A stretch of DNA of 64,000 nt from Bryoerythrophyllum caledonicum (lineage: Eukaryota; Streptophyta; Bryopsida; Pottiales; Pottiaceae): NCBI GenBank assembly GCA_963971425.1, contig OZ020525.1, forward strand, positions 13,770,187 to 13,834,186. The letters are read 5' to 3'. Under the pieces are notes generated by a model. The model searched no databases. It was not told the DNA's origin and saw only the letters and a program-made list of their open reading frames with translations. The position numbers and the translations under genes were made by a program. Below, one piece after another: positions 2,660 through 62,068 of the stretch. The stretch's first letter is position 1. The number at the start of each line of letters is the position of its first letter.

Positions 2660-4069
2660 TATTGGATCTTGTTAAAGTATTTTTTGCAGGCCATGGCAGT
2701 AGACAATTGCACAAGGTTTCAAGTTATGGGTGGAGCTGCTATTTCTATTGGTTGGGTACTGAAGCTCAACTCCGAGGCACCCACTGAAGGCCAACATTTT
2801 ATTTCACAACCTCTTCTCATTAGTTTGGTAGACTCATCAATAACTTCACCACTTTTGCGTGAAAATATTCAAAAGAAATATGTTTTATACTTGATGGCTG
2901 AAGAAGAGGATTTGTATTGTGTTATGGCAAATGCAAGGTTAACTTCGAGGGAGCTAAATGGCATTAATTGGGGGCATTGGTATATCTAACCAAGAAGTGT
3001 TCATCGGTGAAATTTATTTTTCCGTGTGATTATGGCTGATGATCCACTAAGGTTCAAGAATTTTTTTTGTGTCTCTGCTGCAACTTTTCATTACATCACA
3101 GAGTTAGTGGCTCCAGATCTTAAGAGAAATCTTCCAATTGGATTGGAAAATTTACCCAATAGAAAACTAGAAGTTACTCGACAAGTAGCCATAGCTCTTC
3201 GCAGATTAGCAACAGGAGACTCTTTGACAACAATTGGAGAGATGTTTGGTGTAGCAAATTGCATAGTTGCTAAAGTCGTTTCAACTTTTGTGAGATCGTT
3301 GATTTCTTGTGGTGAACACCATTTGACATGGCCAAATGCAGAAGGATTAGAAAGAGTGAAGGCAAAATTTGAGGCAAAGCACGGCATTCCTCAAATATGT
3401 GGTGCTGTAGATTGTACAGACATTCAAGTTGATTTACCAAGCAATGAACGTGCTAGTGATTATTTTGACAAGGGTAATAATTATAGTTTCATCCTACAAG
3501 CTATTGTAGATTCTGATACTCGATTTCTAAACATTTTTGCAGGGTTCCTAGGAGTGGTTCATGATGCAAGGGTGTTTTCAAACTCTGGTTTCAAAGCCTC
3601 AGTGGACCATGGCAAACGCTTGAATGGAAACCCTAGAATTATTCAAGGAATTCCTATTCTTGAGCTTTTAATTGGAGATGCTGGCTACACTCAAAGTCCT
3701 TGGATGTTGATTCTATTGCCAGGTGTCAATTTGGCACCTATGTATGATCAATTCAACTTCAAACATTCTAGCACCAGAATGTGTGTTGAAAGATCATTTG
3801 GCATCCTCAAAGGAGTTTGACGCATATTGAGAAGAACCATGCATATGGTAGATGTTAGAATGGTATCACGTATTATTTATTGTGCATGCATATTACACAA
3901 TATCATGTTGGATAGGGCAAATGAAATTGATGAAGATGTACCAATGGTAGTTCCTCATGATGAAGGATATCCTAGATTTGGGAATCGAAGAGTGATATCA
4001 CATGTAGCATTGGGAATTCGGAATGCTATAGTTGAGCATCTATGGAGTTTGGAAGGGCATGTACAGTAA
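2660..4069 (+). pseudogene. PIF/Harbinger DDE transposase, one premature stop
   Basis: The conserved part runs from ATG 3032 (MADDPLRFKNFF) to 4069. HTH-like segment TTIGEMFGVANCIVAKVV, then the catalytic triad: Asp in GAVDCTDIQ, Asp in IGDAGYT and Glu in CVERSFGILKG. A TGA at 3818-3820 interrupts the frame just after that Glu; the continuing frame (RILRRTM ... ACILHNIMLD) is the normal C-terminus of the family, and a Trp codon is the likely ancestral state. The N-terminal part expected in a protein of 400 or more residues probably lies in the frame at 2690-2989, just beside the Tc1 insertion, but I could not join it cleanly. The nuclease cleaves the element ends with help from the Myb-like partner encoded at 4523-5540. 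Confidence 0.88.
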
Positions 4070-13081: not shown

Positions 13082-14014
13082 TTAACCCCTAAAAGACCAG
13101 AGTCTCCTTCGGGGGGATTTCTGATTTTGGGTAGGTTCCTAAAATTCGAAAAAAATCCTTTTTCTTTGAAATTAAAATTCAAGATTGCCTCTGATAAGAG
13201 CTTCGTGGACACATTTTTATTTTGTTTTTTGGATTTGTGGTTTGAAAGTTAGTACCACTTAAAGCCAAAAGTAGGGACACCGGGCACCTCCAAATTTTTT
13301 GACAAAAGTTTCTATTGACATTGAGATTTTTCACACATATAAAGAATATTTCCTTTTCTAGAAATTTTCAAAAAAAAATCTTGTCTTTAGTGTAAAAAGG
13401 CATTTTATTCCAAGTCAAACATTTTCACACATTGTTGGGCAACGGGGGAAAAAAACTTCATCTTTTCTACATAAAACCTAGAGATCTTCATATTTTTCAC
13501 TTTTTATTTTTTCAACAACAATATGTGGTGAAAACCTTCTTATTTACCGTTTGGATTATCATTTAAATACATACGTAGTTCTCAAAAAAATAAAACGTGA
13601 AATGGAAATTTTTGAACTTCCACTCCTTGCACACTTGTTTTGAATATGCTACACCCCTTTTTTACCTCTAAAAATTGGTGTGTTGGGAAATAACATCATG
13701 CTTAAGACAATGGTAAAAGATTTAGACCTTGTACAATGCAAAAATTTGATACAAATTGAAGTCAAAGTCTGCTGATCTACTCAACGCAGGGAAGAAAATG
13801 AACCATTGTTTTGACTTTAAACACTAAAATCTATCAATCCGTGCGGTGGATTGCAACCAAAAATTTTCGGCATGTTTATATAGAAGTCTATTTTAAGATA
13901 TTACGGTTAGAAATCCGAAATTCACTTTAAAATGTGATTTTCATGTCTCTTTTTGGCAGTGACAGTTTTGGACTGGTTTTAGAGCGAAAGTGGTCGTGGT
14001 CCTTTAGGGGTTAA
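13082..14014. mobile_element. TTAA-ended non-autonomous element, complete copy (933 bp)
   Basis: Begins TTAACCCCTAAAAGACCA and ends TGGTCCTTTAGGGGTTAA. The same ends and shared internal blocks (TGGGTAGGTTCCT, ATCAATCCGTGCGGT) recur in the window at 23406-24617, 40685-41500 and 42368-42961 plus 61700-62068. TTAA at both edges with CCC starts resembles piggyBac elements, which duplicate TTAA; no transposase is present, so the assignment is inference. This copy gives the uninterrupted sequence of the site where the giant MULE inserted in another copy (TGCTACACCCC near 13660). Confidence 0.75.
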
Positions 14015-14036: not shown

Positions 14037-14317
14037 TGTTAGGAGAGGACAATATACAACACCACCATGTCCACATGAAAGAGAGCTCTGACCGGGTGAG
14101 GTCAGCTCTTATATACTTAAGAGGTGGTTAGGTGGCATTAATAGCCAATCAGCCACCTAATTCAGTAGTGGGCGATGTAATCAAGACTGCCATAATTAGG
14201 TAGGTAAGTTTACTTACCTACCCTAATTAGGTAGGTAAGTCTCATAAATACCGCCTAACTACAGTGGACCCGGGAGTTTAAGTAAGAGTAGCTAGGCTAT
14301 TTTAGGCTATCTCAACA
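14037..14317 (-). repeat. Copia LTR (3' LTR of the minus-strand element)
   Basis: 281 bp, TG..CA. Contains an internal palindrome-like block (GGTAGGTAAGTTTACTTACC) that could fold. Nearly identical to 18924-19204. Confidence 0.95.
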
Positions 14318-17300
14318 CTCCTCCTCGAATAAATGATTTTCTCGTTAAAAAACTGCGGTAAAAATGCAGAAAAAGAGTAAAATCTTTATTCGCTTGCTAA
14401 CTCCGTGAGGGTCCGCATGCCAGCTGCTTTGATCAGCTTGCGGTGTTGATGTGCGGGTAGAGCCTTCGTAAGTACGTCCGCAATATTTTCTGCTGAAGCA
14501 ATCTTCTTTGCTTGAATTTGCCGTGTTTCGATTAGATCTTGTGTGTAACTGAATAGATGAGGGCTGATATGCTTGACACGGTCGGCCTTAATAAATCCAG
14601 AAGAAACCTGTTCAATACAAGCTGCATTGTCTTCAAATAAAGTGATCGGCTCCTCCTGGTGTGAAATACCGCTCATCTTGAAGATGGTGTAGTGCATTGT
14701 GCGGATCCAAACCGCTTCGCGGGATGCTTCGTGAAATGCGACTAACTCCGCGTGGTTGGTTGATGTGGCCGTGATCGTCTGTTTGGTTGATCGCCAGGAT
14801 ATCGGCGCTCCGTTCTTGATGAATACGTAGCCTGTCTCAGATTTGCCCGTGGCTAGATCCGTCTTGAATCCGGCGTCGGCATAGCCGGTGATGGCGCTGG
14901 ACTTGGTTTTGTGGAAGTGGAGGCCGAGGTCTGTCGTCCCTCGCAGATACCGTAGGAGATGCTTAACTCCTCGCCAGTGTCTATCGGTTGGCTTTTGATT
15001 GTGGCGAGCAAGCACGCTGACGGCGAAGGAGATATCGGGTCTGGTGTTGGTCGCCAAATAGAGTAGCGCTCCAACAACTGCTAAATACTTGGGCCGATCC
15101 ACTTCCTCTTCCTCCCCTTCTGCTGGCCGATAAGGGTCCTCGTCGGTGCGACTTTTCCCGATCATTGGGGCGGACAGCGCGTTGGCGTCGGCCATGTTGA
15201 AGAGCAGCAAAAGCTTCTTCACGTAGGTCTGCTGATGTAGAAGGATGCTTCCATCTGGATAGTGTTGAATTTGCAGGCCAAGACAAAATGAAGTACGGCC
15301 TAGCACTTTCATCTCAAATTTGTCTGTGAGTAACTTTTCAACTCGTGCGCTAAGCGCTACGGTGCCTATTGAATTTAAATCATCCACATAAACTGCAAGA
15401 ATTACAAAACCCGTCGTGTCTCTGAGGACAAATATGCACGGAAGTGCGGGGTCATTTGTAAATCCCTGCGACAGTAGGTAGGTTTTGAGATGGTGATACC
15501 AAGCTCGGCCGGCTTGTTTCAAGCCATAAAGTGCCTTTCTGATCTTGAGACCAGAATATTTTCCAGGGATAGGCTTGGTCTGATCGGGGAGAAATCCGGG
15601 AGGGGGCTGGATATGGATTTCGGCGTCTAGGTCGCCGTATAAGTATGCTGTCACCACGTCGAGCAAGCGGGTTTCTAAGGAAAGCTGGACGGCTAAGCTT
15701 AGAAGGTAGCGGAAGGATGTACTATCCATAATGGGGGAGTAAATTTGTTCGAAGTCTATGCCGGGTTTTTGGGTGAAACCCTGGGCGACTAATCTTACTT
15801 TAAATCTGATGACTTCCCCTAGGTCGTTTCGTTTGCGTGTAAATATTAGCTTGTGTCCAATTGGTTTATCTAGCAGATTGGTCACTAGTGGTCCGAAAAC
15901 TCCTCGTTTTCTAAGGGAACTATATTCTGCTTCTATGGCTTTTTCCCACTGGGGCCATTCGTCACTCTTTTGGGCCTGTTTTAATGTAAGGGGATCTGAG
16001 TCCAGGGTCGCAAGACTTGACAAAAACATTTCTACGTCGTCCCAGGGCTGTTCTAGTTCGGTGTTTAATACTGTGGGTGCCCGGGAACGGGGTGTATGGT
16101 TTAGTTTCCGTTTCTTAACGGGTTCTGATGCGGGATTTCCTGATCCGGGGACCGGGCTACGAACTATCCGGGGACCGGAGTAGAAGCCATCTGGGATCTT
16201 CTCGGCGAGGTTCTGGAGATTTAAAATCTTTCTAACTTCTGAGTCGGTTAACGCCGTACGAGGATCTGGATTCAGGGTCAAGGTTTCTGGTGATCTAAAG
16301 TTTAGATTGCTATGTTTGGTTTTGGTTTGGGCACTCGGGAATCTAGTTTCTATGAACTTACAATTCTGGAACCGAGCTTTGTGAATATCATCTCTATTGA
16401 TCAGTTTATATCTAATAACACTGGGGGAATCATAACCAAGGTAAATCCCTCGATTTCTATGAGGGGTGATGGTTTTCTGTTGGGGTTCGGGGGCTGGGAT
16501 CCACACTTCGTAGCCAAAGGTGCGGAGGTGGGCTACGTTCGGTGTCCGACCGGATGCCATCTCGAGGGGTGACTGTGTGAGTAATAGTGTGGGTCTTAGG
16601 CGCAGCAGGACGACCGCGTGTAAGACGGCGTGACCCCAGAACTCAGGTGCTAAGCTAGCGTGTATTAGGAGGGGCCTAACGATCAGTTGGATCTTTTTGA
16701 TATAGGCTTCTGCTAGTCCGTTTTGTGAGTGCTCGTAAGGGGCTGAATATGTGAGTGATATACCAGTTGCGGTGCAAAAATCCTCAAAAGCTTGTGATTT
16801 GAACTCTAAGGCGTTGTCCATCCTAAGAAAACAAATCTGATTATCGGGAAAATGGGTTCTAAACCGGATAATCATAGCTAGGGTTTTAGGAAAAACCATG
16901 TTACGGGTTGTGAGCAGGGAAACCTCAGCATGTCTACCCGATGCGTCGACCAAGACAAAGAAGAACTGGAACTGACCTGATTTTGGGTTGATCGGCCCAC
17001 ATATGTCACCGTGGAGCCGATGCAGCGGGGCGGGCATTTCTGTCGGGAGCGTCCATCGCGACGGCTGGCGGATGAGCTTGCCTTGTATACACGCCGCGCA
17101 CTCCTCTACGCGCTCCGCGTCCCGTGTGCAGAGGTCGTGACCGACTAAGGTCGAGACCATTTTTCTCATCATGGTCGTCCCAGGGTGCCCCAGCCAGCGA
17201 TGCCAAACATCAGCCTTCGTGCTGGTTGTCAAAAAGGACATCGGCACCCCTTTCAGGGGTAGGCATGGGGATCTACGTCCGCCATCCTCTTCCTCACTCT

Positions 17301-18923
17301 TACGAGCGGGGCTAGGTACAGCGCCAACAAGGGGCAGCTCGTACAGGCCGGTGGCTCCCGCGTGTGCGGTGGCAAGGAGTCTCTCGCCTTGCCGTAGCTC
17401 GAGGACCTCATCATCAATTCCTACCGCGGTAGAAACGTGGATTTGATTGGCCCGTAAATCCCGGTAGCTGATCAGACTCCGGGGGGCATCCGGGACATAC
17501 ATTGCCCTCTTGCAGGTGAGGGGGGCTCCCCCGGGCAAGACTATGTTTGCCCGGCCCTCGCGGAATTTAAAGGTCCGCTTGCCTGCGATGGTGATTATAT
17601 CACAAGTTTGCCACGGCTCGTTCCTAGTTCTGAACTCAAAGAACGCCGGGTCTTGGAGAATGGTGTGAGTGGACGCACTGTCTAACAAAGCAACTCTCGC
17701 TTTGCTAGGTTGTGACCCAAACTGTACCATATAGTTTTCTGGGTCGACATCGTTTAGCGTAAGGGAGGGGGCATCGAGAGTATGGGTTTCTCTCTTTCCT
17801 TCCCTTAAGGACTTTAACTCTCTATACATGTCGACGATATATTGTGACGCTCGACAATCCTTAAGAAAGTGCCCTGGACGACCACACTTGTGACATGACC
17901 CTCGCGATCCACTCCCTGATGTACTTGTCGACTTATCGGGTCGATGTGTGTACCTCGGGTTCTTGTCTGATTGCTGTTGATCACGACGTGGGGGGCGCCA
18001 ATCGCCTCGGGATCGTCGCCTGGGAGCCTCCGCGCTGTGGGTTTCTCGCCTGGGGTTTGTGGACTTCGACGGCGTCGTCGAGTTGGGCTGCTTGCGGCTC
18101 TCCTTTACTTCGCTTGTGTGAACCTCCTTCGCAGGTCGCACCTCGGCATTTTTAAGGAGCATCTGCTGCTGCTTTTCAGCTAAAAGCAAATATGACATAA
18201 GCTCCGAATGTTGTGTAAATCACATGTTACGGTACTGTTGAGCTAGAATAGCACATGCGGGGGGAAAAGTTGAGAGGGTCTTATCGATTAAGTCGACGTC
18301 GGTAACCGTGTCACCGTAGAGGCGAAGCTGCGCGACGATGCGGTGTAGTTCGGAGTTGAACGCGATGAAATTCGGAAAATCCAGTACGCGTAGACTGAGC
18401 CAGTCGCTGCGGGCTTGGGGGAGGAAAATCGTTTCCTCATGCTTGAAGCGCGCTTCCAATGCTGACCAGAGTACCGCCGGATCTTCAACCTGTATGTATT
18501 GTTGACGCAGGGACGCATCGATGTGTCGCCGGATGATGAGAAGCGTCTGCCACTTGTAGGTGGCTGGTATCTCCGCCTCGGGCTCTCCCTCCAGCGTGAC
18601 GATCAGCTCCTCCGCGCTCAAGTAGGTCTTCATATCGACGTACCAATTAAGGTAATTCGAGCCGTCTGCCTCAAGTGGGTCGAAGAAAAGTGGGGTGGTT
18701 CGTGTCTCTCTTGGTTTTATCACCGTCGCCATCGCGAGGTGGTGTGTGCCTATGGCTCTAGTCGGGGATTCCTAAAAAGCTGACGTCACTCCGGCCGCTC
18801 AATCTCTTGGTAATAAAGTCTTCTGTCTAAACAACTGTAGTGCAGATTCGGAGTGTGTCAGAAAAATGAACAGTGAAACGAATTGTGCTTTCTAGGAATA
18901 TGAGCTATACAGTGCTGATAACG

Positions 18924-19204
18924 TGTTAGGAGAGGACAATATACAACACCACCATGTCCACATGAAAGAGAGCTCTGACCGGGTGAGGTCAGCTCTTATA
19001 TACTTAAGAGGTGGTTAGGTGGTATTAATAGCCAATCAGCCACCTAATTCAGTAGTGGGCGATGTAATCAAGACTGCCATAATTAGGTAGGTAAGTTTAC
19101 TTACCTACCCTAATTAGGTAGGTAAGTCTCATAAATACCGCCTAACTACAGTGGACCCGGGAGTTTAAGTAAGAGTAGCTAGGCTATTTTAGGCTATCTC
19201 AACA
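18924..19204 (-). repeat. Copia LTR (5' LTR of the minus-strand element)
   Basis: Partner of 14037-14317. Target duplication CTTCC lies directly outside both LTRs (14032-14036 and 19205-19209). Confidence 0.95.
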
Positions 19205-19209
19205 CTTCC

Positions 19210-35999: not shown

Positions 36000-37220
36000 A
36001 GCTAAATTCCCCCATAGTACCCGAAGTTCCCAAAGAGTTGACCGATAGTTCCTCCACACCTCTCCCATGCCAACTCACCCTCTTGTCTTCATCATACAAA
36101 CATAAGATGACATACCATACCCGAGGGTTGGATCCCGCAAAAAAAAATCTAAAAAAAGCTACCAAAGATTTCATAAATTATTTTAAAAAAAACTCTATTT
36201 CTTATCTAGTAAAAAAAGCGCATTTATGGGAATATGGGTTTGCCAAACATCTACCATACGAAGTGGTCACTTTTAGACACTACCTTCAGATCAAGTTATT
36301 TTTCTAGATCGTAGTGGTTTGGACACATTGGATATCAATGGATATCACCTGGGCATTATATGGGCATCACTTGGGCATTATATGGGTATCACCTAGGTAT
36401 TACATGGGTATCACCCAGACAAATCTCTTGAAATTTCTAAAAGATTTGGTGGTTTCTCCATTTTGAAATTATTATATATGAAACCAAGCACTTCGTAGGG
36501 TATTTAAAAATGTAAACAAATACCATATTCGGCACTAGAGTGCGAAATCCAACCCTTGGGTATAAGGTAAGCCCCCCCATAACCAACAAAAACCCATAGC
36601 CAACGCCTATAAAATTGGGGTATATCCAACCGTCTTACATCCCATTACCACCAACTGAGCTCCAAATGGAGGTTTGCTATTAGTCAAGACCCTTACTTTT
36701 GGTCGTTGGTTATGGGGGGTACCTACCGTTGGCCACCCACTAAACATGGCTGCACAGTTTGAAAATTCATAACTAATTCCCCTTTCATCGAAAAAATATG
36801 AAATCACTTGGGTTGGAATTGTAATTCTATCGGCTATCACTAAAAAATAACAGTATAATTATCTCCTCCCTCCATATATGCACATTCCTTAACTTGTCGG
36901 GGCTTACCTTCGTGGAAGCAGGTGGAATGCGGTGTCACCCCCTTTCACGCTGAGGAAAACTCTGATGAAGCAGTCAGGATTTGGATGTTCTACACCGTGT
37001 GTACGTTTAGAATAGGATTAGGCTTTGGAAGTGGAGTAGGAGAAGTTGGTGACGAGTTCCTGGGAAGCGATTTGCTCGTTTTGCTGCGGATGGCTCAGCT
37101 TGCCAAGGGTTTTGGCGATGGTGATGTGATTCGGCTTCGACTGGTGCGACATGGGATTCTGTTGAATTTGTTGGATTGTGGTTGTTTGTCCTCAGGTTTT
37201 AGCTGAAAGAAGACCGACCT
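36000..37220. other. Intergenic and SufE upstream region
   Basis: Contains the fourth TATCACC-type repeat at 36295-36510. No gene recognised. The last few hundred bases are the presumptive promoter and 5' leader of the SufE-BolA gene. Confidence 0.45.
36295..36510 (+). repeat. Repeat family with variable TATCACC units, copy 4
   Basis: About five tandem units such as GGGTATCACCTAGGTATTACAT, then the conserved GACAAATCTCTTGAAATTTC and TCTCCATTTTGAAATTATTAT. Same orientation as the 24.8 kb copy but with more units. Confidence 0.65.
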
Positions 37221-37271
37221 CAATTGGAGTGCGTGGGAGGCAGCTTGGATGAGCGGTTGTTGTATATAGCC

Positions 37272-38318
37272 ATGGCTATGGTGTCGTGTCCTTGGTCCTC
37301 GGCTTCTCTCGCTTGCCACTCGTTCTCCCCGTCTGCGGCGCCTGAAGCTCACCACCAGCTCACCCGGATAGCCTTGGGGAAACTTTCACGCGGCGGATGT
37401 ATTCACGCTTCCGCTTCGCAAGGGAGAGTTGCTCTAGGCATTCACGCGAGGAGGGATTGGGGTTTGGCTTCGACTGCGCAAGTGCAGGGGAGCGAGACGG
37501 AGGAGGAGGAGGTGCCGGCCAAGCTTGGGGAGATTGTGCGTTTGTTCCAAGGCGTAGGCGAGCAGCGCGCGCGGTACCAGCAGCTGCTCTACTATGGCCA
37601 GAAGATGACTCCCTTGCCGAAGGAGTATTGCATACCCGAGAACAAAGTGAACGGTTGCGTTTCCCAGGTGTGGGTGGTGTGCCAACTCAGCGACGACGAC
37701 GGCCGCGTCTACTTCCAGGCGGAATCGGATTCCGCTCTCACCAAGGGCCTGGCCGCTCTGCTGGTCGAGGGCCTGTCGGGCGCGACCCCCGCCGAGATTC
37801 TCAAGGTGGCCCCAGATTTCGTCCAGAAGCTGGGGTTGCAGCAAAGCCTGACGCCGTCACGCAGCAACGGGTTCGTCAACATGCTGCGCCTCATGCAGAA
37901 GAAGACGATGCAGGCGTACATGAACTCCGGCACACCTGGTGATGCTGCATCATCATCATCATCATCATCTTCGGAGGAAGAGGTTGTAGAAAGTGTGAGC
38001 GGAGAATCCAAGGCAGAGAATTCACGGAAGGTGACGACAGTGCAGGATTCCATCGTGAGGAAGCTTTCGGAGAAGCTGAAGCCTGTTGTGTTGGAGGTGG
38101 AGGATGTGTCGCATCAACATGCGGGGCATGCTGGCGCGCCGCGCGGGTCGTCGGAGACGCACTTCAATGTGAAGGTGGTTTCGGACGGATTTGAGGGGTT
38201 GAGCCTTGTGAAGCGGCATCGCCTCATCTACGGGCTGCTGCAGGATGAGCTTCAGAATGGTTTGCACGCTCTCTCTCTCATCACCAAAACCCCGGTTGAG
38301 GTTTCTTCCAAACCCTAA
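37272..38318 (+). CDS. SUFE1: Plastid SufE-BolA fusion (cysteine desulfurase activator)
   Basis: Single exon. The frame is open from 37224; I take ATG 37272 (MAMVSCPW) because the upstream residues do not look like a transit peptide and the following Ser-rich stretch does. Length 348 residues from that start. The SufE domain is about residues 80-215, with the sulfur-accepting Cys at about 129 in NKVNGCVSQVW. A Ser/Glu linker follows (part encoded by a TCA repeat). The BolA domain is about 260-345, with HQHAGH and VKRHRLIYGLL. Known role of the plant orthologue: stimulates the desulfurase NFS2 and accepts its persulfide for iron-sulfur cluster assembly in plastids; BolA partners bind monothiol glutaredoxins. 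The C-terminal fusion is normal in plants. No defect seen. Confidence 0.94.
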   Translation: MAMVSCPWSSASLACHSFSPSAAPEAHHQLTRIALGKLSRGGCIHASASQGRVALGIHARRDWGLASTAQVQGSETEEEEVPAKLGEIVRLFQGVGEQRARYQQLLYYGQKMTPLPKEYCIPENKVNGCVSQVWVVCQLSDDDGRVYFQAESDSALTKGLAALLVEGLSGATPAEILKVAPDFVQKLGLQQSLTPSRSNGFVNMLRLMQKKTMQAYMNSGTPGDAASSSSSSSSEEEVVESVSGESKAENSRKVTTVQDSIVRKLSEKLKPVVLEVEDVSHQHAGHAGAPRGSSETHFNVKVVSDGFEGLSLVKRHRLIYGLLQDELQNGLHALSLITKTPVEVSSKP

Positions 38319-42367: not shown

Positions 42368-42961
42368 TTAACCCCTAAAGGACCAAGTGTCCAAAAAGGG
42401 CTTTTTGAAAGTTTGGTCAAGTTCCTATGGAGTCAATTTCCAACATTCTTCTTTGAAATTTTTACTATAGAAAGACATTACCAAGATCTTAGTGGGAAAA
42501 CAATTTTTTCCTAAATTGGACATTTGATGAAAAAGTCATAGGGTTTTGAATTTTAAATGGGGAGGGCGGGCACCTCGGGCACCTCCAAAAACTTTTGATA
42601 GGACACTCTATTGAAAGTGAGATTTTCAGTACTCGCAAGTAATATTATTTCCCTTCATATTGTCAAAAAAAAGTTTTTGTCTTTAGTGAAAAATAGCATA
42701 CCAACCCAAGTCAAACATTTTCACACATTGTCACTCATTGTCAAGCAAGGTACCAAAAAAACTTCTTCTTTTCCACATAAAACCTAGGTATCTTTATATT
42801 TTTCACTTTTTATATTTTTCCACAACAATATGTAATGTAAACCTTCTTATTAACCATTCGGATTATCAATCAAAAACATATTAAGTTCAAAAAAAATTAA
42901 TGTGTGAATTAACAAATTTCGAGCCTCCACTCCTTGCACTTGTTTTGAATATGCTACACCC
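42368..42961. mobile_element. TTAA-ended element, left part, split by the giant MULE
   Basis: Starts TTAACCCCTAAAGGACCA and follows the 13 kb copy to TGTTTTGAATATGCTACACCC, where the MULE begins. The rest resumes at 61700. Joined length would be close to the 933 bp of the intact copy. Confidence 0.85.
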
Positions 42962-43015
42962 GGGAAAAGCTATTTAGTGAGCGGTGAGCGGTGAGTGGTG
43001 AGCGGTGAGCGGTAA
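42962..43015. repeat. Left terminal inverted repeat of the giant MULE
   Basis: GGGAAAAGCTATTTAGTGAG followed by five imperfect GTGAGCG heptamers (42977-43012). The heptamer array recurs, shorter, inside the right end. Confidence 0.85.
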
Positions 43016-43896
43016 CTTTTCTGTAATTTTGGAAATTGCTGTCTCGTGAAGCATACCCTATGACCGCGGTTTTGGTAGTTATTTTGATAATAATTCAATA
43101 TTTTAGGGAAAAAATCATACCTATATCCGTGGTTCAGGCACTTGGGGGAAATTTCAGAATGCGAGGGTGTAATTATTATAATACAAAATAGACAGTGCAA
43201 TTTTTTTATTCTTCCATTCTTCTTCCATTCTATCTTCTTATTTTTTCATTCTTCCATTCTTCTTCCACTCTATCTTCTTATTTTTTGTAATTCTTAAAAA
43301 TATATTGGTATTTTATATTTTTCATCTTTAAATTTTTGGATTTGTTTTCCCGTTATTCCCAATTCCCTAGTCTTTGTTTCATGTTTTGATCAAGTTTTTC
43401 AATCTTTTTTTTTTTTTTTTTTTTCTTGGATTTGATTTAAATTTTGTTACATGGATGATGCTATGGTGGATAATGAGGTAGAGTACCTCTATGTCTTATT
43501 GAATGATAGAGTGTAAGAATATTGTATGTGCCACTTGAATGGAACATAGTAAATATATTTAAAAATAACATCAAATATTATATATCAATGACGGAGGTAT
43601 AACTGCAAAATGTAGAGATATACGTTACGTAACCATTGTGTGTACATTTTAAAATATAGATGCCTTGAACTAAGGAATAGAAAATGATGACTATTTTTAT
43701 GAAGACAATACAAAATATAATTCACTGACTAAGGAAAATCATGAAGATTACCGCACTAAAAGAACATTGAACAATCAAATGCAAGAATATATTATTGGAA
43801 AAGCAATAAGATACAAAATTCTAGCTAAGTCATATAATCGAAATAACAATTATCAGATAATGCTACAGAGACTTTAGAATCTGTACTATCTGCATC
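43016..43896. other. MULE left subterminal region, AT-rich
   Basis: Non-coding. Holds imperfect repeats around CCATTCTTCTTCCA (43210-43275), a long T run (43408-43424) and short blocks (CATACCCTATGACCGCGG, CATACCTATATCCGTGG) that resemble CCTACGACCGTGG in the complement of 61.5 kb, suggesting a longer, diverged inverted repeat. Confidence 0.5.
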
Positions 43897-44290
43897 TCAG
43901 GAGCCTTCATCCTCAGACTCAACAGCTTCTAAATCAACATACTCTATACCTCTTAGCATCAACTTCTTAGGTCTAAATGTACGATATGAACCTTCCGCTA
44001 ATTCATTGGCAACGTCATTTGCGTATGAAGGGAGTTGCCTGGACTTTGGAGGGCTTGTATAGAAGTTAGGGTCACAAAAAAAAGGGCGGTGAATAGGGTA
44101 TCTCAAATTACCGCTTCTACAAATGCAAATGACAGCATGATTATAAAACCGCTACATATAAAAGAAAATCAGAAAAGATAACACTAGTAGTAGAAATTGT
44201 AGCTATACTCACTTATTAAACCTTGACTTCTTCACGATCTTTTGAACAACAATGACTTTGCTATCTGGATCGTCGGAGATGACACCGTTG
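43897..44290 (-). CDS. Hypothetical two-exon coding region of the MULE
   Basis: Exon 44213 leftward-bounded with donor GTGAGT (residues ISDDPDSKVIVVQKIVKKSRFNK) joins in phase to exon 44116-43897 after CATTTGTAG (SGNLRYPIHRPFF ... VESEDEGS, stop). I could not find the start codon or an upstream exon that joins cleanly, so only about 100 C-terminal residues are supported. No known domain; the tail is acidic. It lies between the left end and the 140-residue gene, on the same strand as the methyltransferase-like gene, and may be a third gene of the element. Confidence 0.35.
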
Positions 44291-44679
44291 TCGTGTAGAG
44301 AGAGTTTTGTTTTGGGAAATCACGGGGATTCTGGCTGCTGCTAGTATGATTTGAAAACAAAGGTTGTCGTTCAGTAAAACGTAGATTCTTGAACGTCGAA
44401 TCTTCTTCAACCTTCTTCAAATTGGACCCCGTTGGCCTATCCTGTATTGGCTCTAAACGGGTGTAAGGGTAAGGGTGAGGTGATAAGAAACCACGGGCTT
44501 CGGACAGGTAAAACGGGACGGCCAGGCCACGAGCTGAAACCGTCCGAAAGATGGCTCCTAAATTTCAAACCCACGGTGACCAGCAATCGCGTCTCACCGG
44601 TGGGAACAACATAAACACGACCGCGTGGGCCATTAATCCCACTTCGCCGCAACAAAGTTTACGAAGCAGAATTGAAAAA

Positions 44680-44860
44680 CAACTAGCCTCCAAAGCCGGC
44701 TTGGAATAACAAATAAAGACAACGAGCCTCCAAAGCCGGCTAAGAATAACGAAGCCACAAGCCACAATATGCGAGTCTTCTTGTCTTCTTAACTTCAAGT
44801 CTTCATGTCTTCGCTCTTCAAGTCTTCAAATCTTCTTATCTTCAAGTCTTGAAGTGTTCA
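44680..44860. repeat. Short tandem repeats (AGCCTCCAAAGCCGGCT x2; CTTCAAGTCTT array)
   Basis: Two copies, 41 bp apart, of GAGCCTCCAAAGCCGGCT followed by an array of TCTTCAAGTCTTC-like units. No function suggested. Confidence 0.7.
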
Positions 44861-44889
44861 AAAACACAAAAGACCTCCCAAAGTTCTTT

Positions 44890-45420
44890 ACCACAGTAGC
44901 TGCGAGCTTCAGATTGATGCTACAAATGGTTCAAGCCGCCAAATGCCAAGTGCTGTAACTTTTTGGAAAGCTGGTGCAACAAGCTAACACCCTCCAAAAT
45001 CTCAGGTTATTCTAAACTACCTTCTAAAAGTTATGGAGGTTCAAAGTTTGTGCCTTCTTATGTCGATGGCAGCAAACCCTCTCCAACTTCGGCGGCTATA
45101 ACTTCTATACTACGATTCTAAATAAGTTGTATAATAGCTTTATAGAAAGCTAATTTAACAAGCTACAATTCCTCTAAATTTCACTTTAAACTAATCTACT
45201 CATTAAAAGTTGTGTAAGCTCAAAATTCACGCCTCCCCGCTTCCAAGACGGCAGAACTCTCTTCTACTTAGATGGCTATAGCTTTTTCATAGCGCATCTA
45301 AATGAAGCAAGTGATAGCTTCTTAGAAAGCTAGTACAATGAGGTATCATTCTTTCAAATTTCAAGTCCGAACATAAAGTATCGAAGCCGTGGTGAAGGCC
45401 CGAAGTTGCTGCTCCTCTAA
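44890..45420. repeat. Three degenerate units of about 165 bp
   Basis: Each unit runs like GGCTATAACTTTT..., AGAAAGCTAGT.CAA.AAGCTA.CA, TTCAAATTTCA (about 44930, 45090, 45265). Non-coding interval between two MULE genes. Confidence 0.55.
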
Positions 45421-45932
45421 TTGGGTAGCGGCCAACTACTCCTCACTCAATCTCTCATAACTTTTGCGTATGAACTCCAAATTGAACAAAAACACCGCTC
45501 AAAGAAGCGCAACTTCACAAGAAACAAGTTTACAAACTTTCATAATATTCTCCTGAAAAACGAGTACACACCGCCCGATCTCCCTCTCGGGAATTTTTAC
45601 TCACAGCACTTCGACACACCAAAAATCACACACACACACCAAGAGGAAAGGAGAGTCGCCCCCCCCTTATCCTTCCACATCAGCCAATGCCTAAGCCACA
45701 TGGGCATCTAAAGCCTATTAGTTAACCTCCAAAAACACTCTAATGTCTATCATGATAAGATAGGAAAGAAACCCCAACCATTGGGCTTCAAAAGGTGTGG
45801 TTCCAAAATAATTCTAAGACGGTCAAACTTTTTCTTAGTTTCTTTTCTTTTTCTTTCTTGGATCTTGATCTAATATAAACATAAACACATAACAAACTCC
45901 TATATTAACAACTAAATGGATTCTACTTTCAT

Positions 45933-46355
45933 CTAACCGTATAAAAACTCTAGAATTTGACGGAGTACCGCAAAAATATAACTTGCTCTCCGTTCATCGC
46001 TTAAATAGGTCAGCGGCCCTCGAAGCCAAAGACGGTGGCCCATTTCATTAGAAAAGCGACTCACCATTTGGCCTTCATTGGTATTTTCAAAACACCCTTC
46101 AAACACCATCTGACGGCCACCCGTCAATGAAGCTTCAGCCTCCAATACAATCACTAGAGCTCTCGCGTCCGGTTGTAGATTCACAAATGTAAGTTGCCGC
46201 AGACTTGGATCTGGACGTGGTTGAACACGACACTCGGAAGGCCCCGCTTTATCTCGCACTCGCCGTTTGGAAGTTGATGGCTGAGAAGATTGAAACGGAT
46301 CCTTCGGTAATTGCGATAACGACAACTCCCACTCATCTGGGTCTTGAGAATCCAT
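45933..46355 (-). CDS. Hypothetical 140-residue protein of the giant MULE
   Basis: Single open frame from ATG 46355 (MDSQDPDEWELSLSQLP) to 45933. The N-terminal 55 residues are Ser/Pro/Arg-rich and look disordered; residues 60-140 look folded (LRQLTFVNLQPDARALVIVLEAE, MVFEGCFENTNEG, MGHRLWLRGPLTYLSDERRASYIFAVLRQILEFL). No domain recognised. It lies downstream of the methyltransferase-like gene on the same strand, separated by about 0.58 kb. Codon use is balanced and the frame is uninterrupted, which favours a real gene. Possibly an accessory protein for transposition or silencing escape, but nothing in the sequence shows this. Confidence 0.6.
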   Translation of the reverse strand: MDSQDPDEWELSLSQLPKDPFQSSQPSTSKRRVRDKAGPSECRVQPRPDPSLRQLTFVNLQPDARALVIVLEAEASLTGGRQMVFEGCFENTNEGQMVSRFSNEMGHRLWLRGPLTYLSDERRASYIFAVLRQILEFLYG

Positions 46356-46935
46356 ATTGCCAACTCTAAGCTAACTAAGATTTTAGCTTGGAGTAAACTA
46401 TGTGAGGCAAGGGAATTACCTTCCCTTTATATCTTACAGTAACTTCTTTAAGAAGCTTGCCTTCACTAAATGTACTCTAATAGCCATAAAAAATACCATT
46501 TCAACTAAAAATAGCCTGCATCAAAAGATCTTACTGAAGGACAAAGTTGCAACTTGACACAGTTCCTCTGTAATAATATAAAACCGCCTCGAGCCCACTT
46601 ACAGTCGCCAAGTTGTGGACTTGGTTGGCTGTCATAGTCCATTATATGTTGCTTGCCGGTTCCGGGTTCGATTCTTATCAACTCGTTGAACGGCCTGGAT
46701 AGTTGCAACTTGGCACTTGCTAGTGAAACAAGAAATAAGCAGCCAACCGGCCACCTACGCGCCCTGAGCTAAAGTGACAAGATGCAGGCTTCCAAGATAC
46801 GCAACTAAGCTCCGGCTACTCTATATTCAACCAAACCGTGGATTTCTCCACGACTTCAATATTTTGTCTCTTTATCCTCATTATCAGTCTGATGTTAAAG
46901 ACAACACTTTTATTATTTTCACACAATGTAGTAAT
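46356..46935. other. Spacer between two MULE minus-strand genes
   Basis: Would hold the promoter of the 140-residue gene and the 3' end of the methyltransferase-like gene. Contains a weak RNA polymerase III B-box-like string near 46665 that I do not call a tRNA. Confidence 0.4.
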
Positions 46936-57333: not shown

Positions 57334-60300
57334 ATGGCCCTTGTTCGTGCTGATAATCATTATGTTCCGGTCCTTTTTCCATTAGGTGAAGACGGTCATG
57401 CTATAGTCACTTGTACATTATTAAGTTTGAGGTTTCAGTTTCGTGCGGACACTATCTTTGTCGAAGAAGAAGTTTTTGACGATCAAACCGGTCTACTTTC
57501 ACATGCAGTTGGTCAGATTAGAGGAGAGAATGATGTCGGTTCGTTCTGGTTGCTCAAGCCCGGAAAATATCGTGTATATGGAGTCTCAGAGTCTGTGTTA
57601 GATGGTTCGACTGAACTTCTAACACCTAGGGAGTCGTCAACAGTTAGCATTGAGAGACCAGTGTCGTATAGGGTCAAAATTGAGCCCGGTCTAGAAACAA
57701 CTTATGAGCTCAGTGATGATTCCGAGAGTGAGGTTGATATTCTAAGATCAGAGAGTAAAGTCCAAGCTGCGCTGTCTCCACAAGTAGTTCGGAAGGAAAC
57801 AACTCCTCCAGTCAGTCCGTCTCGTCATGCAGTTGGTCAGTCCAAGGTTGTGGCAAGTCCTGTTGTCAGTATCATTCATTCTTTGATGCGCCTTGGAGCT
57901 CGTAAACGTTCCAAAAGTGTGTTATCTCGAATTAACTTTGATGCAATCAAACTCCAGCAGGTTGATTACCTCCCCCCTCGTTACGATGGGGACGTTATCT
58001 TCGAATTTCCACCTTTAGGTGACCACAGCCAGAACACAAAGGCCAAGCAGCTTCGTGGAATGGATAGACGGTACGATGGCCATGCTTGGTCTCGCACAAT
58101 TACATCCAATATTCAGAATGATCTGAATCTTTTGTTTCGTACATCCTCTTGTTTGGGCCACCTCCGTTGCGACAACCGTGACTCTGAGTATCTTCAGAGA
58201 GACCACAGAACTTCCAAAGTGAATAAAACAGAGTGGGAAGGATTGTCTGAGAAGGTGTTTGAGGAGGGATCCAAGCCTCCCACTGGTTCGACAGTTGTTT
58301 GCAAATCCTGTAACGTCCCTCCCACTTGTGTTGCTGCCTGTCCTGCTAAGATCTACTATGTTATTGCCTCACCTCACATTACGAGGGCTTGTGTGCACTT
58401 GGGATCTCATGACCATCCCGTCAAGTCAGGTGATCATCGGGACTTCATCGAACTGACAGATAGCTTGATTGGGGAGCAAGTCGAACGCACCCCATCAGCC
58501 ACTCGCTTGGCTATTGTGCTTGAAACTGCTAATGATGTATTGGGCCCACTCCTCCTTGCTAAAGAAGGAGAACCACAGAAGATCTTGGAGCTGGACGAGC
58601 TGCAAGGTATTTTCGATCGATGTAAGCACCTCACCTCGCCCAACATTTGTAACGCAGTCACCACGTTTAGAACTATCCGTCGCTTAGGAGTCATGGACAG
58701 TATTACCAAGTTACGCGGTGCTAGCAATTGGAAGTTCGTGCAGCAGAATAAGTTTCCAGGGCTAGGGGCGGACATGGACAAGGTCTTTGTCTTCAAGATG
58801 TCTGAAGTTGGACCGGGCAGCGGAGTCGACCTGGTGAAACGAATGCAAACTGGTGGTGACCTGGAGAACTCTTGGATAATGTTTGACCATGTCAAACGGG
58901 TCAGGTCGTGGACGACAATGGCTTGCCATGTGTACGATTCCACATATTGCCGTGTCATGACAATTGCAGTATGCGACATGCAGTCTGAAGATGTTGCAGC
59001 CCAGTCAATCTTATGGAAGAACCTCAACGCCCTCATGGCTACGCATGGAGTGGTCAATGTCAATTTTAAAGGTTTCATGGCCGACAGTGCACAAGCCAAC
59101 TGGAATGCGGTTCGAATTATATACGGAAGTGGAGATGCGTCTGAAAAGATGGTGGACAAAGAAAGGACTTGTCTTTCCCATTGGACGCAGTCCTTGGAGA
59201 AACATACCAAGGCCGATATCCGTCAAGACCTGCAATCTCAGCATCAAAGACTATGCCAGCAGTACAAGAATGCAAAATCGATGGCGGAGGCCGAGACGAA
59301 GTATCTGGCAATTCGGGCATGGTGGATGTCATCCGGTGCAGCAGCTGAACAAGCCCTTCCTCGTCTTGAGCTGAGGCTGGCCTTCTGGCATTTCCATTAC
59401 CGCCAATGGGGTGGATTTATGGAGTTGGTAAGTCTAGACTTCCCTCTATATTTCATCTATACTTCATTCTATATAGTACTACTACATGAATTCCACCATT
59501 ATGCTAATTCGGGAGTGTATTCACATTGCAGGATCTTAGTGAAGACGAACTAGCGGAAATGCCATCCTGTAACCTTGCTGAATCTATTCATAACAAGTGG
59601 AAGCAGCAATCTGGCGATCGAGGCAGCGACCTATATGTGGCAACTGTCGATGACTTCGTGCGTGCTATCATGCAGTGCTCAGCATATTGCCAATTCCTGA
59701 AGGGAGAGAACCCTGGTACTCGACCGTCGAGGGAGGAATTGAAGCTGAGGAGTGCTCAGAGGTCAGCCGCAAAAACAGGAAACTCCAAACCGCTTCATGA
59801 GGCCATTTTGAAGATGTCTGGCGGTGACGAGTGGTGCACCAGGACTCCCCACCTCGAAGGGAAAGAGGTTTTTGTTTCTCTGAAGCGTAAACCAGATACT
59901 ACTTTTGGTGACGAATGTGAATCTCACAGGCCAGACAAGATCAATATATCCTGTCCACGCGTCCAAACCAGATCTGCCCGACTGAACTCCTCTCCACCTC
60001 GTGTGATAACTCCTGATTCTCCCACAACTACAGATGACGAGCAGCCGCAACTTCCATCAGACAACGCTCCGCAGCAGCTCGATCGGTACCACGTCACCGC
60101 AGCTGAGGAGACAACATGCAACCCTGCCCAGTGGCACATCGCACGTCTGCCTAAGACATCTGCGAAGGCTTGCTTTGCTCTACAAGCAATCACCAAGAAG
60201 AAGTGCGTTGTGAGGATTGTACAAGACGGGAAGAGCACCGCTGCACCTACCTACTCGGGCCTCATGAAGAATTATCGGAAGAATAGGACCGACCCCATGG

Positions 60301-60980
60301 ACTTCTTCTTTTGCAACGACGATATTGAGAGGTGCGTCAAGGGCACAAGGAGGAAGTGGGTTCTCTCAGTGCCGAGCGTTCTAGAGGTATGGCCGGTTAA
60401 GTTGGGGACCAATTTAACCTGCAAAGAGATCCTCTCTTTAGAAAACGCAGGCTTTAGACTGCCCCAGCAGAAGGAGATGACACCTACAAGAATTTTTCAG
60501 GACCACCCGTTGCATGTGGACTTAGCAAGCTACACGACTCCAGCATATCCGAATGAGTTTCCCACCCGGCGTTCAGGGAAGTTGATTCGGCGCAACAAGA
60601 AGGCCCCGTCAACAAAGCACGCCAATAATTGTGCCTCAGCCCTGTCACTAAAAGGCAGAGTGCGCAAATTGTGCATGCTTCCAGCACCTGCCTTAGGATG
60701 CATTGTTTCATTGGATTTCGGCACGCCCCCAAAGGTACAGCAATACTACTTGACAATTTCGCAGCTGCCAGCATGCAGTTGTCCTAACTTCAAGGAGATG
60801 GCGACTAAAGCAATTGGAAAACGGGGTCAATGGGCCAACTGTAAGCATTTGTACTATTTGTTTACTGTAGTGTGTGGTTTGAACTCAGAATCAGATACGT
60901 TCATTCATGCAGCTAGTTTTAGCTTCAACGAAGTGAATAGAGTTTTGAACGGTGGTTTACCGAAGTACCTTGACTCTTAG
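57334..60980 (+). CDS. MULE-superfamily transposase with N-terminal zinc region and SWIM finger
   Basis: Two exons, 57334-59427 and 59532-60980 (GTAAGT donor, TTGCAG acceptor, phase 0), 1180 residues from the first ATG. Residues 1-250: unknown, Ser/acidic. About 255-365: a Cys/His-rich domain (FRTSSCLGHLRC, VCKSCNVPPTC, RACVHLGSHDHP), compatible with a WRKY/FLYWCH/GCM-type zinc finger for DNA binding. Catalytic core: Asp518 in WIMFDHVKRV, Asp584 in FMADSAQANWNAV, C613-x2-H616 in TCLSHWTQS, Glu715 in CNLAESIHNKW, the DDE pattern of MULEs with a helical insert between the second Asp and Glu. C-terminus: a SWIM finger, CSC near 1112 and CKH near 1135. Open across its whole length with all catalytic residues kept, so it may be functional. 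Function: cuts the element at its ends and makes the staggered break behind the 10 bp duplication. Confidence 0.88.
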
Positions 60981-61654
60981 AGTTTTCTGTTTCTTCAGAG
61001 AAACATATGTATGGAGGATTTGTTATAATCATGATGTAGTGAGACTAAAAGGGCCACTACAAGATATTTGACTCACCACATGTATTTCACTGTTCCAAAG
61101 TTGCTTGACCCTTTTAGAATACCTTCCATTCTCATTATACTGAAACAGTTCGTCTTTGACTTGAGAGAGTAAGTTATTTATTACTGATACAATAAGTCTC
61201 AATTTACTAAAATAGTAAGACCCATTCACTGAAACAGTAAGTGATATCATATAACTAACACAATATGCCTCATCTTAGTGATACAGTAAATTCCATTTTA
61301 AAGTATACTAAATGCTCATTTGACAAAAATTATATGTTATCCCAACTCTAATACAGTGAAAATCCATTTACTGATCTATAATGTTTCTAAATCACTAGAC
61401 CCTAGGTAGTATTCAAATTTTTCATGGCCGTAGGCCCTCATTGTACACGATCATAATTCCAAATATTCAATTTACCAAATTTACTAGATTTTTCACTGAT
61501 ATATTTACATTTTTTTCTGTACCAGAACCCTTAATTGTCCACGGTCGTAGGTCCCAATATTTACTAAGTTTAGAAAAAAAATTACAAAAAATACGGTTAG
61601 TCCAAAAATACCCTAAGCTTACTGCTTAAAGTTACATTTTAATCAAAATATCTC
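60981..61654. other. MULE right subterminal region
   Basis: AT-rich, non-coding, with many imperfect units of ACTGAAACAGTAAGT/GATACAGTAA (61080-61360) and two CC.TAGG blocks. Probably the 3' leader of the transposase gene and inner part of the right end. Confidence 0.5.
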
Positions 61655-61699
61655 AGAACTTACCGCTCACCGCTCTACACTCGCAAAATAGCTTCGTCC
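61655..61699. repeat. Right terminal inverted repeat of the giant MULE
   Basis: CTTACCGCTCACCGCTCTACACTCGCAAAATAGCTTCGTCC; its complement aligns to the left end with a 7-base gap and several mismatches. Confidence 0.85.
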
Positions 61700-62068
61700 T
61701 GCTACACCCCGTCTCTACCTCTAAAAATTGGTGTGTTAGGAGCTAACATCATGCTTAACAAGATGGTAATAGATTTAGACCTTGTGTAGTGAAAATTTTT
61801 GACACCAAGTGAAGTCAAAGTCTGCTGATCCACTAAACGCAGGGAAGAAAATGAACCATTTGCTTGACTTCGAACACTATAATCTTTCAATCCGTGCGGT
61901 CAAAGGTTATGAAATTTTGTACATGTATTACTTAATAAGCCTTTATCTAGACCCTACGGTCAGAACTAAAAATCAAAGTTTTTGTTTCCTTCTTTATTCA
62001 TTGCACTAGAATCCAACAATTTTGAAGTGTTTTTGGTGTAAAACTGTCTTGCCAACCTCAGGGGTTAA
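61700..62068. mobile_element. TTAA-ended element, right part, split by the giant MULE
   Basis: Resumes TGCTACACCCC and follows the 13 kb copy (ACCTCTAAAAATTGGTGTGTT, CTTTCAATCCGTGCGGT) to the end CCTCAGGGGTTAA. TTAA at 62065-62068. Confidence 0.85.

Follow-up and report, generated by a model that had tools for sequence, protein, structure and literature searches.

The window analysed here is the whole stretch of 64,000 nucleotides at positions 13,770,187 to 13,834,186 (forward strand) of contig OZ020525.1 in the genome assembly GCA_963971425.1 of Bryoerythrophyllum caledonicum (Bryopsida, Pottiaceae), and it contains at 42962-61699 a copy of a giant cut-and-paste DNA transposon family whose members are about 16.5 kb long. 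The element carries a transposase gene and, transcribed divergently from it, a gene for a predicted fusion of a ParB-like block with a methylase-like domain (the ParB-methylase gene), whose introns hold an array of short palindromes. Positions are counted from the first base of the window, and the features are collected in Table 1. The left border reads TGCTACACCC followed directly by GGGAAAAGCTATTT, the right border AAATAGCTTCGTCC followed directly by TGCTACACCC, the duplication being perfect and 10 bp long, and the imperfect inverted ends have AAGCTATTT and AGCGGTGAG repeats in common. A sequence-only reading of the same DNA had placed both borders and the 10-bp duplication by means of an empty site near 13660. 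This was confirmed by the repeat at 13281-13847, which aligned with the repeat flanking the element at 77.9% identity over 594 columns; it holds one TGCTACACCC where the element has one on each side, and the empty site is therefore real.

The host's own genome (437 Mb in 894 contigs) was searched with the first 139 and the last 139 bases of the element, a kind of search that the sequence-only reading had proposed with the terminal 60 bp, and matches were paired when they lay on the same strand and 5-50 kb apart. With 40 candidates scored, at least 42 matches were obtained for each end, and these gave at least 34 end pairs (28 spaced 15-21 kb; median, 16.65 kb). All 11 whole copies (10 fetched and the window copy) were bordered by direct repeats of 10-12 bp that differed between sites, and matching direct repeats of at least 10 bp were found at nine of nine further end pairs, of which the ends only were read; among these nine, one repeat was ambiguous within a CAA microsatellite, and for another the match was displaced outwards by 15 bases. 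In total, 20 of 20 copies whose ends were read had flanking direct repeats of 10 bp or longer, one of them ambiguous, and the element has transposed in this genome. Sequence identity among the 11 whole copies was 87-99.6%, except for the divergent copy C4b at 67-68%. Copy C14b (C14:5110612) sits inside a TTTAGGG-type repeat. The length of 18.7 kb given by the sequence-only reading holds for the window copy and not for the family, whose usual length is about 15.5-17 kb, because 2,660 bp of the 18.7 kb are an insert private to the window copy.

The transposase gene consists of two exons encoding 1180 amino acids, and its frame is open in the window copy and in four of the ten others (C3a, C14b, C7a, and C4b). 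The full-length transposase of the sequence-only reading was thus present as an open frame, probably of the type of Mutator-like elements (MULEs); the Pfam MULE profile PF10551 matched neither the window copy's transposase nor any of 39 relatives aligned with it. At least 118 relatives at 34-85% identity were obtained by a protein search in which 8000 candidates were scored. Residues D518, D584, and C613/H616, the block HLGSHDH at 355-361, and CxC...CxH at 1113-1137 were recognised, for which we assume the motif names N-terminal HxH zinc-finger-like and C-terminal SWIM-like; the last E of the DD...E core was not located by residue inspection. In the host genome, at least 138 PF10551 matches were obtained with 150 of 384 candidates scored, and this element is not among them. 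KDZ was not matched in Pfam by any of 40 aligned transposases, and the KDZ profile PF18758 gave no match in the host genome in a search in which the controls gave none either. No significant relative of the transposase profile was found among solved structures, and none of the transposase in IMG/VR at the sensitivity used. The target duplication of 10 bp in the window copy and the matches of 10-12 bp in ten whole copies correspond to the 8-11 bp of Mutator elements. On the grounds of this length, the N-terminal HxH block, the D...D...CxxH residues, and the C-terminal CxC...CxH, the superfamily is likely Mutator, an assignment not confirmed by profile. A transposase relative, P0001 (85%), and a methylase-exon relative, P0249 (68%), were each matched on an ENA contig 18,151 bases long; the two may be a single contig, which would hold a relative of the element from another sample.

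The ParB-methylase gene runs on the minus strand from 55921 to about 43897, and its exons were modelled from splice sites and open frames, together with what stays protein-like in copy C4b and in locus L037. It is the large multi-exon gene that the sequence-only reading had seen, and in the window copy it is cut by the private insert. The predicted protein would consist of an N-terminal ParB-like block, a charged stretch, and a C-terminal N4/N6-methylase-like domain. The latter was matched by Pfam N6_N4_Mtase above the cut-off in two copies (E=2.9e-7 and 5e-8) and below it in the window copy (4.2e-5). A GNHR motif is present in the ParB-like block, and among its relatives the most frequent weak match was to the ParB-like partition family of PHROG (11/34; best E, 0.04); drawn from a short motif and from profile matches of low significance, the ParB label is a weak one. 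The ParB alignment gave no relatives in IMG/VR and GTDB genomes at the sensitivity used.

The palindrome in the introns of this gene is GTCTCGGNNCCGAGAC, with the core TCGGNNCCGA, and elsewhere in the window it was not found at up to 3 mismatches with four centres tried. At up to 2 mismatches, all 80 palindromes of the ten main-family copies (C4b left out) lay in introns of the ParB-methylase gene as modelled; intron 1 alone held 65, and the 7.1 kb of exons held none. The core occurred 6-10 times in each of the 11 copies, versus 0.05-0.10 expected from the simulation of four copies, and in the whole genome 239 sites of GTCTCGGNNCCGAGAC were found versus one of the reversed control pattern. The array is conserved in the main family: between the window copy and C8a the core positions were 88.0% identical and the rest of intron 1 78.5%, and when nine blocks were placed at random, the observed share of invariant columns was reached in 0 of 2000 trials. 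Copy C4b has its own nine core sites, in which the flank differs. Outside the element, core sites stand at about 8234 and 20495 (CGTCGGCACCGAAC and TGTCGGTACCGACA).

At least 150 relatives of the ParB exon are present in the host genome, 150 of 1765 candidates having been scored. Seven of these loci, L061-L067, were chosen by ParB match alone and read over 5-5.5 kb each, mostly on the 5' side, and all seven had arrays of TCGGNNCCGA with 3-9 core sites each, versus 0.02-0.06 expected. Their variants were, in order, GCGTCGG-CA, CCTTCGG-TG, TCTCGG-AT, CAGTCGG-AG, GGCGTCGG-TG, GCGTCGG-TA/TG, and TCCTCGG-TA, with CG, CT, TC, AG, CG, CG, and CC as the main flank pairs. Two of three control palindromes were absent from all 13 loci, and the third, TGCCNNGGCA, was seen in W and C6a, one time each. 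The CG flank is common to L061, L065, and L066, which resemble one another at 72-84% in their ParB parts, and the variants therefore go by clade and not by single locus. A palindrome cluster at C1:3605387, which was picked before the list of ParB exons was seen and is not on that list, holds 13 core sites, mostly TCTCGGCACCGAGA, together with a transposase at 38.5% identity and a ParB-methylase gene at 34%. All 50 listed sites of the palindrome in the genome are on contig C1, where they form 22 clusters; besides the one just described there are 21, and for 11 of these a ParB exon from two incomplete lists stood no more than 8 kb away (0.24 expected). In a tandem scan of four loci, palindrome-bearing arrays were found in two, with one palindrome in each unit: L037 (120 bp x 5.8 and 67 bp x 3.1) and L058 (106 bp x 7.2). 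The tandem repeats of L063 had no palindrome in the consensus shown, and L067 gave a 392-bp duplication, whose consensus was seen in part.

Ratios of nonsynonymous to synonymous substitution rates (dN/dS) were counted for pairs with the window copy or C4b and for three further named pairs. For the transposase they were 0.17-0.20 when C4b was set against each of the ten others, and 0.31-0.59 in other pairs; for the ParB-methylase gene they were 0.30-0.31 in the pairs C6a-C2a, C6a-C4a, and C3a-C4a and 0.35-0.51 in pairs with the window copy, dS being saturated against C4b. By these values, purifying selection has acted on both genes in the long run, with function in individual copies relaxed or supplied in trans. 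Between C4b (C4:26592896-26609402) and the window copy, DNA identity is 82-93% over the right end and most of the transposase, and mostly 53-72% over the ParB-methylase exons. This pattern suggests that families exchange whole modules.

We consider it somewhat favoured, at a probability of roughly 0.55, that the ParB-methylase protein reads its own palindromes for self-recognition, most likely against silencing. The protein would bind the palindromes of its own element and so recognise its own family, and it would act in trans on copies in which the ParB-methylase gene is broken. Bound there, it would stand between the promoter regions of the two genes, its own and the transposase gene, where it would most likely prevent silencing, either because host methylation is blocked or displaced or because the protein adds a mark of its own, and it may also control its own dose. 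The process would resemble the anti-silencing that VANC exerts in the VANDAL elements of Arabidopsis, through another kind of protein. A wider proposal, put forward tentatively and with somewhat less than even confidence, is that a large radiation of ParB-methylase transposons has arisen in the host genome in which the protein of each clade reads its own palindromic address, the core TCGGNNCCGA with the flanks and centre of that clade, and shields only its own kind from silencing, independently of VANC. As part of that same tentative proposal, the origin would be a prokaryote-type ParB-methylase, the address would have been multiplied by tandem duplication in the element's own introns, and methylase activity may have been lost.

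Several observations weigh against self-recognition by this protein. As for the gene itself, the ParB label found no Pfam ParB match among the 34 relatives, in which the lowest E belonged to the unrelated Phage_tube_C (0.0035, 3 members), and no significant relative of the ParB exon among solved structures (PDB). The canonical methylase motif IV is DPPY, NPPY, or SPPY. In 33 of 36 sequences this position reads D[LIMQ]PEG and not DPPY, and motif I is degenerate; methylation by the protein is for these reasons uncertain, and action by binding alone and action by setting a mark are equally likely. The private insert severs the last part of the gene in the window copy, in each of the nine other copies that could be assessed the gene is damaged by at least one stop, frameshift, or deletion relative to the window's exons (integrity in C4b could not be judged from the copy alignment), and by the gene model the gene is intact in no fully read copy. 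As for the sites, the core occurs twice in the window's other 45.1 kb, and at positions aligned to the window palindromes C4b is 49.5% identical versus 50.8% elsewhere, with no excess. L061 and L065, whose ParB exons are 72% alike, have almost one site variant; L063 and L064 (ParB exon 74% alike) yet differ in flank and centre; and the distant L058 (ParB exon 33%) has the same TC flank as the window family. Binding specificity may be located elsewhere in the protein than in the ParB exon. For ten of the 21 palindrome clusters, neither of the two incomplete lists named a ParB exon, and the P of 1.5e-16 for the overlap is overstated because the matches include relatives by descent. Confidence in self-recognition is lowered by the lack of an intact gene by model in the fully read copies and by the nearly identical site of L061 and L065.

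Among the other explanations, it is rather doubtful that the protein is an active N4C/N6A methylase marking its own element, so that the mark and not the occupancy protects or regulates. The Pfam matches above the cut-off in two copies and the dN/dS of the gene below 1 are consistent with this, and self-modification was proposed for the comparable Ectocarpus protein in the excerpted text of PMC12477816; the replacement of motif IV and the degenerate motif I argue against it. An operator or partition-like (parS-like) site, serving dose autoregulation or copy clustering with no link to silencing, is unlikely. The palindromes do lie in intron 1, in the gene's own 5' region, and bacterial ParB-type proteins bind palindromic sites; yet 3-13 core sites per locus, tandemly multiplied in two loci, exceed the need of a simple operator, and VANC targets are known, from the excerpted literature, as tandem, intron-borne arrays.

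It is improbable that the transposase or a host factor binds the palindromes as internal regulatory or synapsis sites and that the ParB-methylase gene merely hosts them. The start of a related transposase was found beside the array in four of eight loci outside the family (L058, L061, L064, and L065), so both travel together, and the array is situated between the two divergent genes. However, none of the 80 palindromes was close to either end of the element or inside the transposase gene, and arrays were present in L062, L063, L066, and L067 with no related transposase in the 5-5.5 kb read. Moreover, the window and C4b transposases are mostly 82-93% identical, while the palindrome flank changed along with the ParB-methylase exons (53-72%), and in Ectocarpus, by the excerpted text of PMC12477816, a comparable protein accompanies a Sola-1 transposase. 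That the borders and repeats are an accident of segmental duplication, with no transposon involved, has a probability close to nil: nothing was found in its favour, and it is refuted by the empty site and by the direct repeats of at least 10 bp at 20 of 20 copies.

Table 1. Positions of the element, its genes, its palindromes, and associated features in the window
Feature	Position	Strand	Basis or remark
Whole element, window copy	42962..61699		18,738 bp including the 2,660-bp private insert; empty-site comparison, genome end pairs
Left target-site duplication TGCTACACCC	42952..42961		Flank comparison
Right target-site duplication TGCTACACCC	61700..61709		Flank comparison
Left imperfect terminal inverted repeat	42962..43010		GGGAAAAGCTATTT and AGCGGTG repeats
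Right imperfect terminal inverted repeat	61651..61699		Comparison of inverted ends
Paralogous repeat with empty insertion site	13281..13847		Single TGCTACACCC at 13647-13656
Transposase exon 1	57334..59427	+	Open frame, GT donor
Transposase exon 2, SWIM-like CxC...CxH	59532..60980	+	Open frame, motif
ParB-methylase exon 1 (MITRSK...), 270 nt, in phase with exon 2	55652..55921	-	Identity 48% (C4b), 78% (L037)
ParB-methylase intron 1, palindrome array	52611..55651		65 of 80 palindromes of 10 copies
ParB-methylase exon 2, ParB-like block	51961..52610	-	286 relatives in protein search
ParB-methylase exon 3	51664..51859	-	Gene model
ParB-methylase exon 4	50417..50608	-	Gene model
ParB-methylase exon 5	50110..50328	-	Gene model
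ParB-methylase exon 6	49574..49798	-	Gene model
ParB-methylase exon 7, charged coiled-coil-like region	48750..49478	-	Acceptor uncertain
ParB-methylase exon 8, methylase motif IV position, ADLPEG	47641..47988	-	Gene model, motif
ParB-methylase exon 9	47190..47463	-	Pfam N6_N4_Mtase
ParB-methylase exon 10 up to private insert, methylase motif I region	46945..47081	-	Pfam, copy alignment
Rest of exon 10 past insert, end approximate	44213..44284	-	Uninterrupted in other main-family copies
ParB-methylase last exon, ends approximate	43897..44116	-	Frame 43900-44151, 71% identity to C4b
Palindrome GTCTCGGTCCCGAGAC, exact	51078..51093		Pattern scan
Palindrome, 3 mismatches	52742..52757		Pattern scan
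Palindrome GTCTCGGTCCCGAGAC, exact	52900..52915		Pattern scan
Palindrome, 2 mismatches	53008..53023		Pattern scan
Palindrome, 2 mismatches	53166..53181		Pattern scan
Palindrome, 2 mismatches	53346..53361		Pattern scan
Palindrome, 2 mismatches	53505..53520		Pattern scan
Palindrome, 3 mismatches	53622..53637		Pattern scan
Palindrome, 1 mismatch	53781..53796		Pattern scan
Palindrome, 3 mismatches	54785..54800		Pattern scan
Palindrome, 2 mismatches	54923..54938		Pattern scan
Private 2,660-bp insert splitting the ParB-methylase gene of the window copy	44285..46944		Missing from 10/10 other copies
Class I fructose-bisphosphate aldolase gene fragment, captured host sequence	54457..54738	+	Pfam Glycolytic 4.9e-29
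Small open reading frame upstream of transposase, partly conserved, KPGTYSRS block	56308..56811	+	39-50% identity to C4b/L038 over 38-57 aa

The private insert has a 4-bp GACA repeat on both flanks, and clear terminal inverted repeats were not seen in it. The sequence-only reading had allowed for perhaps two more genes in the element, and neither was upheld. One is an open reading frame of 145 amino acids (45933-46370, minus strand) without a Pfam match, which was rejected as a family gene because it belongs to the private insert. The other is the captured aldolase fragment, which lies within intron 1 of the ParB-methylase gene and has cytosolic aldolases, which we take to be those of plants, as its best relatives among solved structures; it was rejected as a cargo gene, the match covering only about 95 amino acids and the stretch failing to align in three of the ten other copies (C4a, C8a, and C4b), where identity is only 43-46%. 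A tandem 57-bp repeat occupies 49809-50019 inside a ParB-methylase intron, and the stretch 49712-49961 was covered to just 54-77% in the alignment of all ten other copies.

Elsewhere in the window, a long terminal repeat (LTR) retrotransposon lies at 14037-19206, nearly filled by minus-strand frames of 1277 and 183 amino acids and presumably of Copia type by gene order; since its two 283-bp repeats are 100% identical, it was recently inserted. A host gene at 37203-38315 combines a SufE domain (Pfam, 1.4e-40) with a BolA domain (2.9e-30) in a single open frame and resembles, as we assume, a plant chloroplast Fe-S assembly protein. Together with the aldolase fragment and the TTTAGGG-type repeat at the site of C14b, this gene would point to a plant host. 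The frames at 1282-1902 and 3011-3820 contain DDE_3 and DDE_Tnp_4 transposase domains, respectively, which we take to be of Tc1/mariner type and PIF/Harbinger type. No RNA families or tRNAs were found within the window.

The kind of protein described here is already known. According to the excerpted text of PMC12477816, the element Sola1-1_Ec32 of Ectocarpus (21.5 kb) encodes a ParB-like and N4C/N6A methylase protein of 1104 amino acids on the strand opposite the transposase, its authors suggest that the protein may bind and modify its own transposon, and similar proteins are cited from green and red algae (Iyer 2011; Petroll). Both that element and the present one are giant DNA transposons with a ParB-like and methylase protein antisense to the transposase; they differ in that the former has a Sola-1 transposase in a brown alga, whereas here a probably Mutator-type transposase occurs in a plant host, and an array of palindromic sites is not mentioned in section 5 of that paper. 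For VANC, binding to the 9-base motif YAGTATTAY and demethylation have been proven, and the motif sits in tandem repeats of the element's own introns and upstream regions, where silencing is removed (PMC5735166 and PMC10398659, as excerpted). In both systems a motif array is situated in the element's own non-coding DNA, including introns, and motif and protein vary by family; here the arrays proved specific to family or clade, L061 and L065 nearly sharing one variant. Unlike VANC, the present system would involve a ParB-methylase-like protein and a palindrome of 14-16 bases, both known from sequence alone.

With Mutator-like elements the present family shares target duplications of 8-11 bp, a possible SWIM zinc finger, and the accessory open reading frames of some groups (PMC6446971), and it differs by its length of about 16.5 kb and by the absence of a PF10551 match; the words 'methyltransferase' and 'ParB' do not appear in the text of PMC6446971. 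Like Pack-MULEs, it has captured a host gene fragment, but it keeps its own open transposase frame and far exceeds the 7-kb maximum reported in the excerpted text of PMC6431247, and an assignment to Pack-MULEs was rejected for the transposase frame present beside the fragment. The giant En/Spm elements of red algae and the KDZ elements are likewise giant DNA transposons with accessory genes, whereas their transposases are others by name (PMC12477816 and PMC6431247, as excerpted). The sequence-only reading knew of no described family with such a gene set. This does not hold for the protein, which has been published from algal giants (PMC12477816, as excerpted). In open PMC literature, no report was found of a palindrome array with a ParB-methylase transposon. 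As far as the searches go, three things are new: the palindrome arrays, the multiplication of the protein within a single genome, and its occurrence in a plant together with a transposase of probable Mutator type.

The ParB-methylase accessory proteins of algae have so far been predicted, with a proposed role; here they are joined by likely DNA targets that differ by clade. The many natural combinations of protein and site in one genome make the distinction by a transposon between itself and other DNA directly testable, and the ParB-methylase loci form a natural set of related DNA-binding specificities. If self-recognition against silencing is true, the family would be a second, independent case of what VANC does.

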